A DNA stretch of 64,000 nt, from positions 1-64,000 of the forward strand of contig NZ_LQYA01000001.1 in the NCBI RefSeq assembly GCF_001531445.1. Reading direction: 5' to 3'. Source of the stretch: Sporosarcina koreensis (GTDB taxonomy: Bacteria; Bacillota; Bacilli; Bacillales_A; Planococcaceae). Under the pieces are notes generated by a model. The model had not been told where the DNA came from and did not search any database. It worked only from the letters and a program-made list of their open reading frames with translations. Shown piece by piece: positions 6,058-18,147 of this stretch; position 1 is the first letter of the stretch; each line of letters opens with the position of its first letter. The translations under genes and the position numbers were made by a program.

Positions 6058-8255
6058 TCGCACTCCTCAATATCAGATGCTGTCGATCTCGTATAATACG
6101 TCGTTTTCATGCCTGATTTCCATGCCTGTACATGTAAATCGAGGAGAACGGATGCGCGGATGTTATTCGGCACGTATATATTGAACGAAATCGCTTGGTC
6201 AATATGGCGCTGCCTTGCCGCATTCTGTTTAATGGACCAGCGCTGGTCTACGATGTACGCAGAGCGTCGGTAGACATCGTAAGTATTATGATCAAGATCA
6301 GGCGCTATGACCGGCAACTTGTAGTCTTTCTTCTCCTCATGATAGAACGCTTTGAAAATGGGGTCGATGGAAGCCGTTGACCCCGCAATGACCGATGTCG
6401 AGCTATTCGGCGCGACTGCCATTAAATAGCCGTTTCGAATACCGTTTGTCGCCACATCGATACGCAGTTCATTCCATTCCTTCGATTCGTATCCACGTTT
6501 CTCGAAATAAGCCCCGTTTTGCCAATCTGATCCTTCGAATAAAGGATACGTACCTTTTTCAGTCGCCAATTCCATCGAAGCCTTGGTCGTCAAATAGGCA
6601 ATTCTTTCATACAGTTCATCTGCATAATTGACCGCTTCGTCCGATTCCCATTGGATGTTTTTCAAAGCAAGCAGATGGTGCCATCCGAATGTCCCGAGCC
6701 CGATACCTCGGTAGCGTGCATTCGTCCGTTGTGCCTGGACGACCGGTATTTTATTCAAATCAATGACGTTGTCGAGCATGCGCACTTGAATCGTGATAAG
6801 GCGATCCAATACATCTGCGGGAACGGCACGTCCAAGATTGACGGACGACAAGTTACAGACGACAAAATCACCTGGTTTCGAACGCGTCACGACGATATCG
6901 TCTTCGAGCGTGACAGATTCAAACTCTGTCGGACTCATATTTTGCATGATTTCTGTACAGAGATTACTCGAATACACCATACCTACATGCTTATTCGGGT
7001 TCGTCCGGTTCACTTCGTCACGGTAAAACATGAATGGCGTCCCCGTTTCGAGTTGGCTCCGCATGACGCGCTTCATAATTTCAATCGCCGGGACTGTTTC
7101 CTTCGTCAATTCAGGGTGATTGACACATTCCTCATACTTCTCACGGAACGAACCTGCCCCCTTCGTTTCATCGTAATAATCTTCTAGCGAATAACCCATA
7201 ACTGTGCGCACTTCATGCGGGTCGAATAAATGCCAGTCACCACGGGCCTCGACTTGCTCCATGAATAGATCCGGCAGGCAGACGCCTGTGAAAATATCAT
7301 GTGCACGCAAGCGATCATCGCCATTGTTCAGCTTAAGGTCAAGGAACGTGAAAATATCTTTATGCCATACATCGAGATAAACCGCGATCGCTCCTTGACG
7401 TTGGCCAAGCTGATCAACGCTGACGGCCGTGTTGTTAAGCTGCTTGATCCACGGAAGAACGCCGCTAGACGCTCCTTTGAAGCCTCGGATGGACGAGCCG
7501 CGAGAACGGACCTTGCCCATATAAACTCCGATGCCGCCACCATATTTAGATAGATTCGCAATATCGGTATTGCTGTCATAAATCCCTTGCAGCGAATCAT
7601 CGACTGTGTCAATGAAACAGCTGGACAACTGACCATGTGGTTTGCCCGCGTTCGAAAGCGTCGGCGTTGCTACGGTCATATACAAATTACTCATCGCCCA
7701 GTACGCTTCCGCCACTTTACCGAGACGATTTTCTGTTTCATTTTGCATAAGCGTCATCGCAATGATGAGCCAACGTTCCTGCGGCAATTCTACAGGATCT
7801 TTATTGAAATCAACCGCAACATACCGATCCACAAGCGTTTTCAATCCAATATACGTGAAAAGCTTGTCCCGCTCTGGCTCTATGAATGTTCCGAGCTCTT
7901 CCAAGTCTTCCCGCGCATATTTTTCAATCAAAACGGAAGTATACAAGCCTTTCTCGACAAGCCGCTCAACATTGTCGGCAAAATCCGTATATACTTTTGC
8001 GCCCCTCAACTGTTCCTGGTAGGAATAAACCTCCTGCAAATAAATCCGCGCAGCAACGAATGTCCAGTAGGCAGATGCTTCGTCAATATGACTGAGTGCC
8101 TCCAAAATCATCGCCTTCGACCAATCGGATGCATTCCCTTCAGGATGCCGCTCCTTCCAACGCACGCTCGCTTCTACGAGTGGATGGAGCTTGTCCGCAC
8201 CAAATTCAGCTTGCAGCTCGTCCATAATGTCTGTTCTTTCCGTAATGATTGTCAT
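6042..8255 (-). CDS. nrdE: Class I ribonucleoside-diphosphate reductase alpha subunit
   Basis: A 737-residue catalytic subunit. Visible are the redox cysteine in GQLSSCFIDTVDD, the N-x-C-x-E active-site triad in NLCTEIMQN, the second redox cysteine in VVCNLSSVNLG, the phosphate-binding APNSSTSVIAGSTAS stretch and a C-terminal CEWC pair that relays electrons from thioredoxin or glutaredoxin. No N-terminal ATP-cone motif is evident, as in NrdE-type enzymes. It is the first gene of the operon, its 3' end overlaps the flavodoxin gene, and AAAGGAGATGGG precedes the ATG. A cobalamin riboswitch with a terminator and an NrdR box lie upstream. The expected consequence is repression when adenosylcobalamin is plentiful, which usually accompanies a B12-dependent class II reductase elsewhere in the genome (not visible here). 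Confidence 0.95.
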   Translation of the reverse strand: MTIITERTDIMDELQAEFGADKLHPLVEASVRWKERHPEGNASDWSKAMILEALSHIDEASAYWTFVAARIYLQEVYSYQEQLRGAKVYTDFADNVERLVEKGLYTSVLIEKYAREDLEELGTFIEPERDKLFTYIGLKTLVDRYVAVDFNKDPVELPQERWLIIAMTLMQNETENRLGKVAEAYWAMSNLYMTVATPTLSNAGKPHGQLSSCFIDTVDDSLQGIYDSNTDIANLSKYGGGIGVYMGKVRSRGSSIRGFKGASSGVLPWIKQLNNTAVSVDQLGQRQGAIAVYLDVWHKDIFTFLDLKLNNGDDRLRAHDIFTGVCLPDLFMEQVEARGDWHLFDPHEVRTVMGYSLEDYYDETKGAGSFREKYEECVNHPELTKETVPAIEIMKRVMRSQLETGTPFMFYRDEVNRTNPNKHVGMVYSSNLCTEIMQNMSPTEFESVTLEDDIVVTRSKPGDFVVCNLSSVNLGRAVPADVLDRLITIQVRMLDNVIDLNKIPVVQAQRTNARYRGIGLGTFGWHHLLALKNIQWESDEAVNYADELYERIAYLTTKASMELATEKGTYPLFEGSDWQNGAYFEKRGYESKEWNELRIDVATNGIRNGYLMAVAPNSSTSVIAGSTASIDPIFKAFYHEEKKDYKLPVIAPDLDHNTYDVYRRSAYIVDQRWSIKQNAARQRHIDQAISFNIYVPNNIRASVLLDLHVQAWKSGMKTTYYTRSTASDIEECEWCHS

Positions 8256-8286: not shown

Positions 8287-8329
8287 GAAAAAAGCGATGA
8301 TTCCACCTCTTCGGTAGAGTCATCGCTCA
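8287..8329 (-). terminator. Expression-platform terminator of the cobalamin riboswitch
   Basis: On the minus strand GAGCGATGA pairs with TCATCGCTT, followed by a U tract, 31 bases before the alpha-subunit start. It lies between the aptamer and the gene, so it is the probable regulated terminator: formed when cobalamin is bound, disrupted when it is absent. Confidence 0.75.
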
Positions 8330-8399
8330 TGGATTTTGATTTGGAAACAGATCGGGACCGCCTGAAAAATGAAAGCAAAATTACCCGTTCGCCTCCACC

Positions 8400-8590
8400 T
8401 CTCAACCCCCGAAGAAAGTGTCGCTTGACGATGGATGGCAGGTCTACTGGCTAACGCTTCCTCCTTCCATCTCCCCTTCCCGCGGCTTCGAGCTGCAGTG
8501 GATATTGAGACGGTCGTCTGCGTTTACAGTTGCGGGGACAGCTCCGATTTGCGGATTCCCTTTTAAACCGATAACGGCACCATTTCATCG
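8400..8590 (-). ncRNA. Adenosylcobalamin riboswitch upstream of nrd operon
   Basis: Read on the minus strand, the leader carries the conserved cobalamin-riboswitch blocks in order: GGTGCCG at its 5' end, AAAAGGGAA, then the B12 box GCTGTCCCCGCAACTGTAA, a CCACTG...GGGAAGG segment, and AGCCAGTAGACCTGCC closing the core (plus-strand 8437-8452). These match the family's signature closely, with one change in the usual GCTGCCCCCGC. It is followed by a terminator at 8329-8287 and then the reductase alpha gene. B12 control of B12-independent reductases is known from organisms that also hold a class II enzyme. The exact ends of the aptamer are estimates. Confidence 0.92.
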
Positions 8591-8594
8591 TTCG

Positions 8595-8610
8595 ATACTA
8601 TATATTGTGT
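8595..8610 (-). promoter_or_regulatory. NrdR box overlapping the nrd promoter
   Basis: The minus strand reads ACACAATATATAGTAT, which matches the NrdR-box consensus acaCwAtATaTwGtgt at 15 of 16 positions. A weaker second candidate, CCACAACATGTTAGGG on the minus strand (plus 8628-8643), lies 33 bp upstream; NrdR sites usually come in pairs about 31-32 bp apart. The good box covers a TATAGT that can serve as the -10 of the riboswitch transcript. The nrd operon thus appears to be under both NrdR (dATP-responsive) and B12 control. Confidence 0.75.
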
Positions 8611-8681
8611 GTTATGTACATTTACTACCCTAACATGTTGTGGTTTAATCGTAAATAGGAAAAAAGAAGCTCTTCTTTTAA

Positions 8682-16213: not shown

Positions 16214-16220
16214 CAACTAC

Positions 16221-16456
16221 AATATCGATGACGAAGAGAGTAATGGGTCATCACTTCTGTAGCGAGCCGGGGTTGGTGTGAGCCTGGCGGAGTGGATTCG
16301 TGAAGCGCACTTCGGAGATGCTTTTCTGAATGAAGTAGGAGAAGCCGGTGTCTCGCCGTTAGGAGAAAGGGGCCTCTATCCATACATGACAGAGGCAATT
16401 TGAGTGGTACCGCGGAACAAGCTTTCGTCTCATTTATTGAGATTGAAGGCTTTTTA
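16221..16456 (+). ncRNA. T-box leader of argS (arginine, specifier CGC)
   Basis: The leader contains the T-box sequence TGGTACCGCGG at 16405-16415, which pairs with the uncharged tRNA acceptor end, followed by a terminator stem (about 16421-16452) with a T tract. Stem I begins near 16230 with the GAGAGTAATGGG AG-bulge type sequence, and the returning strand reads GAAGCGCACTTCG. The codon CGC at 16306-16308, followed by A, is the likely arginine specifier, agreeing with argS downstream. Low tRNA-Arg charging would favour antitermination. Confidence 0.9.
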
Positions 16457-16482
16457 TTTTACGTAAAAAGGGGTTCGTGCAC

Positions 16483-18147
16483 ATGAAAAAGGACATTTTG
16501 CAAGCTCTACAAACAGTCAGCCCAATCCAATTGGAAGAGCATATGTTGGAACGGCCGGCAAATTCAAAGTTAGGCGATTTTGCTTTGCCTTGTTTTCCGT
16601 TCGCAAAAGTTTTACGAAAATCGCCCGTCACTATCGCGGAAGAAATCGCGGGGTCATTAACACATCCTTCCATCCGTAAAGCGAAAGCCGTCAATGGGTA
16701 TGTGAATATTTTCCTAAATCGCGGTGAAATTACCGACAATCTCTTGCATAAAATTTTGAATCAATCCGCCGCTTACGGTTCGTCAAATGAAGGCAATAGC
16801 GGTGTCGTGACGATTGATTTATCATCTCCAAACATTGCAAAGCCGTTTTCCATGGGCCATCTTCGCTCAACGGTCATCGGGAATTCCATCTCTTTATTGC
16901 TTGAAAAAAATGGCTACCAGCCCGTGAAAATCAATTACATCGGTGATTGGGGCACACAATTCGGGAAGTTGCTTACCGCGTACCGGAAATGGGGCATCGA
17001 GAAGGATGTCCGTCAAGCACCAATTGAAACTTTGCTGAAACTTTACATCCGTTTCCACGAAGAAGCGGAGGTCGATCCTTCTTTAAACGATGAAGGTCGC
17101 GCTGCATTCAAGGCCCTTGAAGACGGAGATGTCGATGCACTTGCCCTTTGGGAATGGTTCAAAACCGAGTCGTTGAAGGAGTTCCAACGGATTTATGATC
17201 TACTCGGGGTTACCTTCGACTCGTATAACGGCGAAGCCTATTACAACGACAAAATGGAACCTGTCGTCCAGGAACTCGAAGACAAAGGCCTATTGGTCGA
17301 ATCGGAGGGCGCCATGGTTGTAGAGTTGGAAGAAAGCATACCTCCATGTCTTATCAAGAAATCAGATGGCGCGACATTGTACGCAACACGCGATTTGGCA
17401 GCTGCCCTCGACCGGAAACGAACATACGATTTCGTCAAATCCATTTATGTCGTCGGAAATGAACAAAGCCTCCACTTTACGCAAGTGAAGCAAGTGCTTG
17501 GCAAAATGGGGCATGACTGGGCAAATGACATCGTACATGTGCCATTCGGGCTCATCTTGCAAGGCGGCAAGAAGATGTCGACGCGGAAAGGCAAGATTGT
17601 CTTGCTTGAGGAAGTATTGAAAGATGCAATTGAACTTGCACAAAAAAACATCAAGGAGAAGAACCCGACACTTGCCAATCAATCCGAAGTCGCTGAAGCC
17701 GTCGGTGTCGGCGCCATCCTCTTCAGTGACTTGAAGCAGCACCGGAAGCATGATATCGAATTCAACTTAGAGACAATGCTGCAAGTCGAAGGCGAAACCG
17801 GTCCGTATGTGCAATACGCCAATGCGCGGGCACACTCGATTTTGCGCAAAGCGCAGGTCTCCAAAACGTTCGCGATTAACGAAGTGAACGATTACGAATG
17901 GGAAACGGTCAAGCTGCTCGAACAATTTCCGCAGACTGTCAAACGGGCTGCCGACGAATTGGACCCTTCCCTTATTGCGAAGTATGCGGTCGACCTCTCC
18001 CAAGCGTTCAACTCGTTTTACGGGAATGTGCAAGTGTTGACCGATCATGCTAGCTTACCTTATCGCTCGGCACTCATCGAAAGCGTTACAATCGTCTTGA
18101 CGGAATCGATGAGACTGTTGGGTATGAAAGCTCCACAAGAAATGTGA
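16483..18147 (+). CDS. argS: Arginyl-tRNA synthetase
   Basis: A 554-residue class I synthetase that charges tRNA-Arg. The HIGH-type motif occurs in SPNIAKPFSMGHLRSTVIG (about residue 125), the KMSKS-like loop in GGKKMSTRKGK, and the C-terminal anticodon-binding DALR domain includes QYANARAHSIL and ends RLLGMKAPQEM. N-terminal residues 1-90 form the Arg-tRNA-synthetase additional domain that contacts the tRNA D loop. The length matches B. subtilis ArgS. The start is ATG 16483, nine bases after AAGGGG; a GTG two codons upstream is less well spaced. Expression is controlled by the T-box at 16221-16456. This may be one of two argS genes in the genome, which would need checking. Confidence 0.97.
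   Translation: MKKDILQALQTVSPIQLEEHMLERPANSKLGDFALPCFPFAKVLRKSPVTIAEEIAGSLTHPSIRKAKAVNGYVNIFLNRGEITDNLLHKILNQSAAYGSSNEGNSGVVTIDLSSPNIAKPFSMGHLRSTVIGNSISLLLEKNGYQPVKINYIGDWGTQFGKLLTAYRKWGIEKDVRQAPIETLLKLYIRFHEEAEVDPSLNDEGRAAFKALEDGDVDALALWEWFKTESLKEFQRIYDLLGVTFDSYNGEAYYNDKMEPVVQELEDKGLLVESEGAMVVELEESIPPCLIKKSDGATLYATRDLAAALDRKRTYDFVKSIYVVGNEQSLHFTQVKQVLGKMGHDWANDIVHVPFGLILQGGKKMSTRKGKIVLLEEVLKDAIELAQKNIKEKNPTLANQSEVAEAVGVGAILFSDLKQHRKHDIEFNLETMLQVEGETGPYVQYANARAHSILRKAQVSKTFAINEVNDYEWETVKLLEQFPQTVKRAADELDPSLIAKYAVDLSQAFNSFYGNVQVLTDHASLPYRSALIESVTIVLTESMRLLGMKAPQEM

Follow-up and report, generated by a model that had tools for sequence, protein, structure and literature searches.

The window analysed here, a stretch of 64,000 nucleotides from Sporosarcina koreensis, carries on its minus strand the operon of a class I ribonucleotide reductase (RNR) together with an elaborate leader. 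From 8655 to 4601 the order is predicted promoter, two NrdR boxes, riboswitch, post-aptamer hairpin, terminator, ribosome-binding site (RBS), alpha, flavodoxin and beta:

8655 to 8627, minus strand: predicted promoter, assigned from conservation, with -35 TTTACG (8655-8650), a 17-bp spacer and extended -10 TGT-TAGGGT (8635-8627)
8643 to 8628, minus strand: NrdR box 1, CCACAACATGTTAGGG, core CAACATGTT, overlapping the spacer and the -10 and kept among relatives
8610 to 8595, minus strand: NrdR box 2, ACACAATATATAGTAT, just downstream of the predicted start, from a genome-wide motif scan
8600 to 8420, minus strand: cobalamin riboswitch aptamer
8420 to 8396, minus strand: post-aptamer hairpin, arms CACTTT and GAGGTG, loop with CTTCGGGGG, conserved among relatives
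8328 to 8288, minus strand: intrinsic terminator, GAGCGATGACTCTACC / GGTGGAATCATCGCTT and a T run, -22.4 kcal/mol
8270 to 8263, minus strand: RBS AAGGAGAT, by sequence reading
8255 to 6042, minus strand: class I RNR alpha, 737 aa
6063 to 5608, minus strand: RNR-associated flavodoxin, 151 aa
5662 to 4601, minus strand: class I RNR beta, 353 aa

The three genes overlap, and curated models identified them as alpha, flavodoxin and beta of a class I RNR, the class that a sequence-only reading of the window had proposed. The alpha subunit scored 1286 bits against NF006665 (cut-off 1057) and 588 bits against the class I model TIGR02506 (cut-off 341), and its nearest solved chain is 7agj. The adjoining R2 protein, beta, scored 409 bits against NF007184 (cut-off 310); its nearest solved chain is 2rcc, and an E-x2-H-x3-Y motif was found by reading. 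The flavodoxin passed NF006747 (146.7 bits, cut-off 104) and fell slightly below the cut-off of TIGR01754 (155.5 against 163.8 bits). Assignment to class Ib (NrdE/NrdF) was rejected, with 400 bits against a cut-off of 750 for TIGR04170 and 135 against 355 for TIGR04171; nrdE is used below only as a label for the alpha gene of the operon. Among the matches listed, the nearest NrdE proteins in named genomes are those of S. luteola (91-93% identical).

Transcription is predicted to start near 8620 from the extended -10 promoter. Exact TGTTAGGGT recurs in 58 of 60 Sporosarcina leaders, and in all 58 the hexamer 17 bp upstream of TAGGGT begins with TT (TTTACG in 35, TTGCAT in 8, TTTACT in 7). By reading, Lysinibacillus and Psychrobacillus have TTGCAA or TTGCTC with TGTTAGATT at the same position, and several Bacillaceae loci (L083-L099) are without a clear match to the promoter and box pattern.

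The presumed NrdR consensus, which we take to be ACACWATATATWGTGT, is matched at 15 of 16 positions by box 2, in agreement with the sequence-only reading. This is the best match in the 4.34-Mb genome and the sole site there with at most one mismatch. With up to three mismatches 50 sites per strand were found, compared with 45 in a backward-read control, and weaker matches alone therefore mean nothing. Box 1 matches at only 10 of 16 positions, and its conservation is not separable from that of the overlapping -10. When 140 leaders (80 from named genomes, 60 from the genus) were lined up on box 2, a second conserved block appeared upstream at 32-33 bp, start to start. Sporosarcina shows this block as CACAACATGTTAGGGT and several other Planococcaceae as ACACAATATGTTAGATT, and it reads as box 1 fused to the extended -10. 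Box 2 follows the -10 motif by 20, 25 or 26 nt in all 60 Sporosarcina leaders, a count that includes G008 and G022, whose motif variants were added to the pattern after reading. The leader thus holds a weak, conserved box (8643-8628) and a strong one (8610-8595) with a 17-bp spacer, within the 14-17 bp that NrdR proteins accept according to an excerpt of PMC12051234. The tandem boxes would flank the start, and together with the nrdR gene of the genome they suggest repression at high dNTPs.

Box 2 had been placed over the probable -10 in the sequence-only reading. That placement was rejected: the conserved upstream motif fits better, and by hand reading, transcription driven by a -10 inside box 2 would begin within P1 of the aptamer and truncate it. 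Where box 2 adjoins the aptamer, its palindrome is imperfect in most cases. As a separate observation, uncorrected for relatedness, its right half is GTG in 16 of 18 leaders without a riboswitch vs 8 of 42 with one. The idea that the right half avoids mispairing with the post-aptamer hairpin was examined by hand and dropped as a misfit in some lineages.

The covariance model RF00174 accepted the aptamer with 100.5 bits (E = 6.1e-24, gathering threshold 31.5) over its full length, 1-189 of 189, bearing out the earlier call of a complete adenosylcobalamin (AdoCbl) aptamer. A B12 box, AGCCAGTAGACCTGC, was found in the leader by its pattern. The aptamer is predicted to bind AdoCbl. Three further cobalamin riboswitches are present in the genome: one upstream of a btuF/btuC-like importer (named by eye), another upstream of a surface protein, presumably of the DUF4430 type, and the remaining one close to a contig end. 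Elsewhere in the window, a T-box leader (16219-16435, plus strand, 123 bits) lies upstream of an arginyl-tRNA synthetase-like gene (16477-18147), and a second argS-like gene adjoins a cobalamin riboswitch on contig C49; both genes were named by eye.

These elements suggest, with high probability, an AdoCbl OFF-riboswitch with a transcription terminator that would silence the class I operon when coenzyme B12 is plentiful, leaving the AdoCbl-dependent class II enzyme NrdJ to take over. The leader RNA would fold the aptamer, and bound ligand would hold P1 and the post-aptamer hairpin, so that the terminator (8328-8288) is free to form. In the absence of ligand, the 3' strand of P1 and/or the CUUCGG loop of the post-aptamer hairpin would, somewhat more probably than not, pair with the 5' arm and loop of the terminator, and RNA polymerase would read through into alpha-flavodoxin-beta. 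In 18 rows, P1-3' is pairable with the terminator 5' arm in 94 of 108 cells, and CUUCGG with CCGAAG of the terminator loop in 95 of 108. Neither pairing shows covariation, for which reason we only infer the antiterminator.

The sequence-only reading had expected a class II nrdJ in this genome, and a search located it on contig C225, split into two parts (9270-7828 and 7573-6455) that flank an intron-like insert. Against TIGR02504 the pieces scored 315.6 and 256.5 bits, each alone below the cut-off of 399.95. The C-terminal part is 97-98% identical to the uninterrupted genes of three other genomes (G036, G039 and G052). The search for nrdR that the same reading called for was also successful (TIGR00244, 212.9 bits, cut-off 124.65). 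It lies on contig C172 and hence does not adjoin nrdJ in the draft. A search of the same genome for nrdD found none.

The association between riboswitch and NrdJ was assessed in two sets of relatives. The genus set comprised 61 Sporosarcina genomes, our own included, with NrdJ found in 47 and not in 14; in two of the latter, 75% and 78% complete (G026 and G034), the missing nrdJ may be a gap. This nrdE is present in 60, and G054 was left out of the two-by-two comparison. All 40 regex-positive leaders passed RF00174 (81-123 bits), as did two of the 20 regex-negative ones, G035 (NrdJ present, 107.9 bits) and G031 (NrdJ absent, 59.3 bits). An aptamer thus precedes nrdE in 41 of 46 genomes with NrdJ vs 1 of 14 without (Fisher p = 2e-8). 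In G031, the single exception among the latter, the aptamer is degraded and the T run interrupted; the NrdJ-containing genomes without an aptamer are G002, G015, G029, G051 and G053. Separately, G054, the sole Sporosarcina genome of the 61 without this class I nrdE, has NrdJ and may live on class II RNR alone.

The second set consisted of named genomes, the best 80 of at least 585 relatives. NrdJ was found in 66 and not in 14, weak matches near 75 bits being the class I protein. A riboswitch lies upstream of nrdE in 62 of the 66 named Bacillales with NrdJ vs none of the 14 without (Fisher p = 2e-12). The four lacking it are S. quadrami (L023), a Candidatus Kurthia equi MAG (L073) and two Oceanobacillus (L094 and L098). 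Regex alone supplied 48 of the 62 calls and the covariance model 14, and all 18 negatives were put through the model. The B12-box regex is insufficient by itself, as the 14 riboswitches were found by the covariance model among 32 named loci that did not pass (one loosely).

The two sets overlap and are not independent (110 tree rows, 104 of them different). An NrdE tree was built from these 110 rows, which cover the named set in full (80 loci) and 30 of the 60 loci from the genus, and on it riboswitch and NrdJ each change nine times. Seven independent pairs could be drawn (starred branches), of which 2-4 agree (mean 3.6), none oppose and the rest tie, giving a median sign-test p of 0.125. The corrected test is non-significant because the independent pairs are too few. 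The rule is thus strong in counts, uncontradicted on the tree and non-significant after correction. B12 repression had been held to make sense only where NrdJ is present: as a strong tendency this stands, and as a law it does not, with one NrdJ-less genome keeping a degraded aptamer and five Sporosarcina with NrdJ lacking one. Leaders in which the aptamer is degraded or missing (G031, G051, G029 and G002/G027/G042) look like natural stages of riboswitch loss.

The same data bear on a different explanation, in which the riboswitch is intact and serves the general B12 economy, not the choice of RNR class, its association with NrdJ being due to shared ancestry. The scarcity of independent pairs leaves room for it, as do G031, which keeps an aptamer at 59.3 bits without NrdJ, and the nine genomes of the two sets that have NrdJ and no aptamer. 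Those nine, together with an interrupted T run in G009, count against the OFF-switch. Nevertheless, NrdJ-less genomes with an aptamer number only 0 of 14 in the named and 1 of 14 in the genus set, spread across several branches of the NrdE tree, and no independent pair opposes the rule. Moreover, a cell that has neither NrdJ nor NrdD would depend on the class I enzyme as its sole RNR, and silencing it would be harmful. We therefore consider a role in general B12 economy quite improbable and retain the OFF-switch for class choice.

The sequence-only reading was right about the presence of the terminator and inexact about its position, 31 bases before the alpha gene: counted by hand, 32 bases separate the end of the T run from the ATG at 8255. 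In an alignment of 25 hand-chosen rows (7 end before the terminator and were counted as gaps), 94.4% of 267 stem cells are paired and 5 of 15 pairs changed on both sides. Cells with changes on both sides number 22, vs a mean of 6.7 in shuffled alignments and 0-4 in slid structures; the count of further pair types in this alignment was not above shuffles. The terminator stem is kept by compensatory changes in relatives. The post-aptamer hairpin, which we take to be P13/L13-like, is paired in 106 of 107 cells in 18 Sporosarcina rows with no compensatory change. With its CUUCGGGG loop it is almost invariant, and near-identical across many genera.

For most of the 42 riboswitch leaders of the genus, a strict script detected a hairpin immediately followed by a T run, about 100-130 nt past the aptamer. 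It found none in G009, G016, G057 and G060, hairpins elsewhere only in G031, G040 and G045, and weak ones in G050 and G056. By reading, hairpin and T run are present in G016, G040, G045, G057 and G060, and the T run is interrupted in G009 and G031. Loss of the T run was considered as a mark of NrdJ loss and rejected, since G009, which has NrdJ, shares it with its sister G031. In a separate observation by reading, four leaders without an aptamer, G051 (L119) and G027/G042/G002 (L112/L113/L114), have a terminator-like hairpin and T run before nrdE.

Some cobalamin riboswitches act on the RBS, and control at translation start, with the ligand hiding this site and no termination involved, is therefore conceivable. 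Here, however, neither the aptamer nor the post-aptamer hairpin nor the terminator includes the RBS (8270-8263), and the compensated stem in relatives argues for termination, so that control at translation start is very unlikely. Least probable of all is a decayed or constitutive leader, whose aptamer no longer binds and whose terminator merely attenuates: G051 has lost its aptamer and kept a terminator-like hairpin and the T run is interrupted in G009 and G031, yet the copy studied here is full length at 100.5 bits with terminator and T run intact, and with a terminator that is never relieved an important operon would be starved.

Alongside the predicted AdoCbl OFF-switch, the role of NrdR can be considered from the second RNR locus. 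The nrdJ promoter architecture matches that of the class I operon, with TTGCGG and TAGATT separated by 17 bp and two boxes whose starts are 33 bp apart; of these, the one downstream is a perfect palindrome, ACACAACATGTTGTGT, with two mismatches to consensus. All ten Sporosarcina nrdJ loci compared (L008-L010 and L013-L019) have a box with at most three mismatches and a second one 32-33 bp upstream. This second box has 2-6 mismatches, the best of seven offsets having been taken, so that 6 is weak. In other families a box of at most three mismatches with such a partner lies upstream of two of three nrdJ loci, L012 being without. No cobalamin riboswitch was found at the five Sporosarcina nrdJ loci scanned (L015-L019). 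Since nrdJ has the same tandem-box promoter without the riboswitch, and since the literature presents NrdR as a repressor of RNR genes that senses nucleotides (PMC9110341, in extract), NrdR probably sets total RNR expression and the riboswitch would choose the class. The proposal that NrdR forms one half of a two-layer switch between oxygen and B12 is unsupported on the same two grounds.

The nrdJ gene itself is interrupted. In the genome studied here (L015, contig C225, minus strand, 7827-7574) a 254-nt insert breaks the active-site codon region at NPCG|EQP. Among 21 Sporosarcina nrdJ regions, chosen because earlier searches showed a break at the NPCG site, 20 carry, precisely at the NPCG|EQP junction, an insert of 246-1216 nt that follows a T and has G as its last base; two of those read have an HNH-like or other endonuclease-like ORF in a loop (by eye). 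The insert resembles a group-I-type intron. Helices derived by hand are similar to those of a group IA intron and comprise P1 with a U.G at the splice site, P10, P3 (UUGCGG/CCGCAA), a P7.1/P7.2-like insert and P7 (GCAUAC/GUAUGC). In nine aligned short copies 95.7% of 441 cells are paired, and 9 of 49 pairs changed on both sides vs 3.7 in shuffled and 0-4 in slid alignments. Further pair types in these copies were not above shuffles, P3 and P9 never vary, and P7 is without compensated change. A search of Rfam with the 501-base stretch holding the insert returned no family at E up to 1, so that the evidence for group I consists of the hand-derived helices and their covariation.

The possibility that a split intein breaks the nrdJ frame of G000 was set aside in view of the 254-nt length, early stops, the U/G splice-site signature and the group-I-type helices. 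Judged by open-frame length, 33 of 47 Sporosarcina nrdJ genes look interrupted: in 17 the frame over the C-terminal query is 373-380 aa long, in 9 it is 589-619 aa, and 7 are split again near query residue 173. The other 14 have frames of at least 853 aa. In G045, group II intron pieces (RF02004, RF00029) lie between the nrdJ parts instead (L017 2451-2633, 5006-5090 and 7682-7774). The class I nrdE of the NrdJ-less G022 (L162, contig C4 67531-70828) is split into two matches about 1.07 kb apart, possibly by another intron or an intein. Excerpts of two papers state that group I introns are known in bacterial nrdE genes (PMC3984707) and that phages commonly have split RNR genes (PMC3653736). It is conceivable, though unlikely, that two RNA devices gate RNR class in Sporosarcina, an AdoCbl riboswitch on class I and a mobile self-splicing group-I-type intron on nrdJ, splicing being maybe growth-responsive. 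If so, cells with unspliced nrdJ would be trapped when B12 shuts class I, and this could help explain the repeated loss of nrdJ and riboswitch.

The Sporosarcina leader is a further case of an arrangement known from Streptomyces nrdABS, Bacillus methanolicus nrdAB and Priestia megaterium nrdEF. In Streptomyces coelicolor a B12 riboswitch precedes the class Ia operon nrdABS, and nrdRJ encodes the alternative class II enzyme (Borovok et al. 2006, as cited in PMC3293853 and PMC4342826). As there, the genome studied here combines a class II NrdJ with a class I operon predicted to be silenced by B12. Joint control by NrdR and riboswitch also has a precedent, as the excerpt of PMC12051234 names S. 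coelicolor among the bacteria whose RNR operons are preceded by NrdR boxes at a spacing of 15-16 bp. In contrast, Streptomyces is an actinomycete with the regulator nrdS in the operon, whereas Sporosarcina has a flavodoxin between alpha and beta and its nrdR is not beside nrdJ. Closer relatives show the same layout: an (AdoCbl)-nrdAB riboswitch, before a class I operon, is listed from RNA-seq 5' UTRs of Bacillus methanolicus MGA3 with reference to Streptomyces nrdABS (PMC4342826, in part), and a passage of a Priestia megaterium review places a riboswitch before the B12-independent nrdEF and names NrdJ as the class II enzyme in the genome (PMC8390425). The logic of isozyme replacement was stated in 2004, with earlier work cited, for delta-proteobacteria with NrdJ, which have B12 elements before nrdDG; there the silenced enzyme is class III (PMC545781, in extract). 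Among the matches listed in the open-access literature, none on the Sporosarcina nrdE leader was found.

What began as a guess about a single genome, that silencing of a class I enzyme by B12 implies the presence of a class II enzyme, has become a rule checked in 60 Sporosarcina and 80 named genomes (overlapping sets). The two layers of control can also be told apart, with NrdR boxes at both operons and the riboswitch at one.
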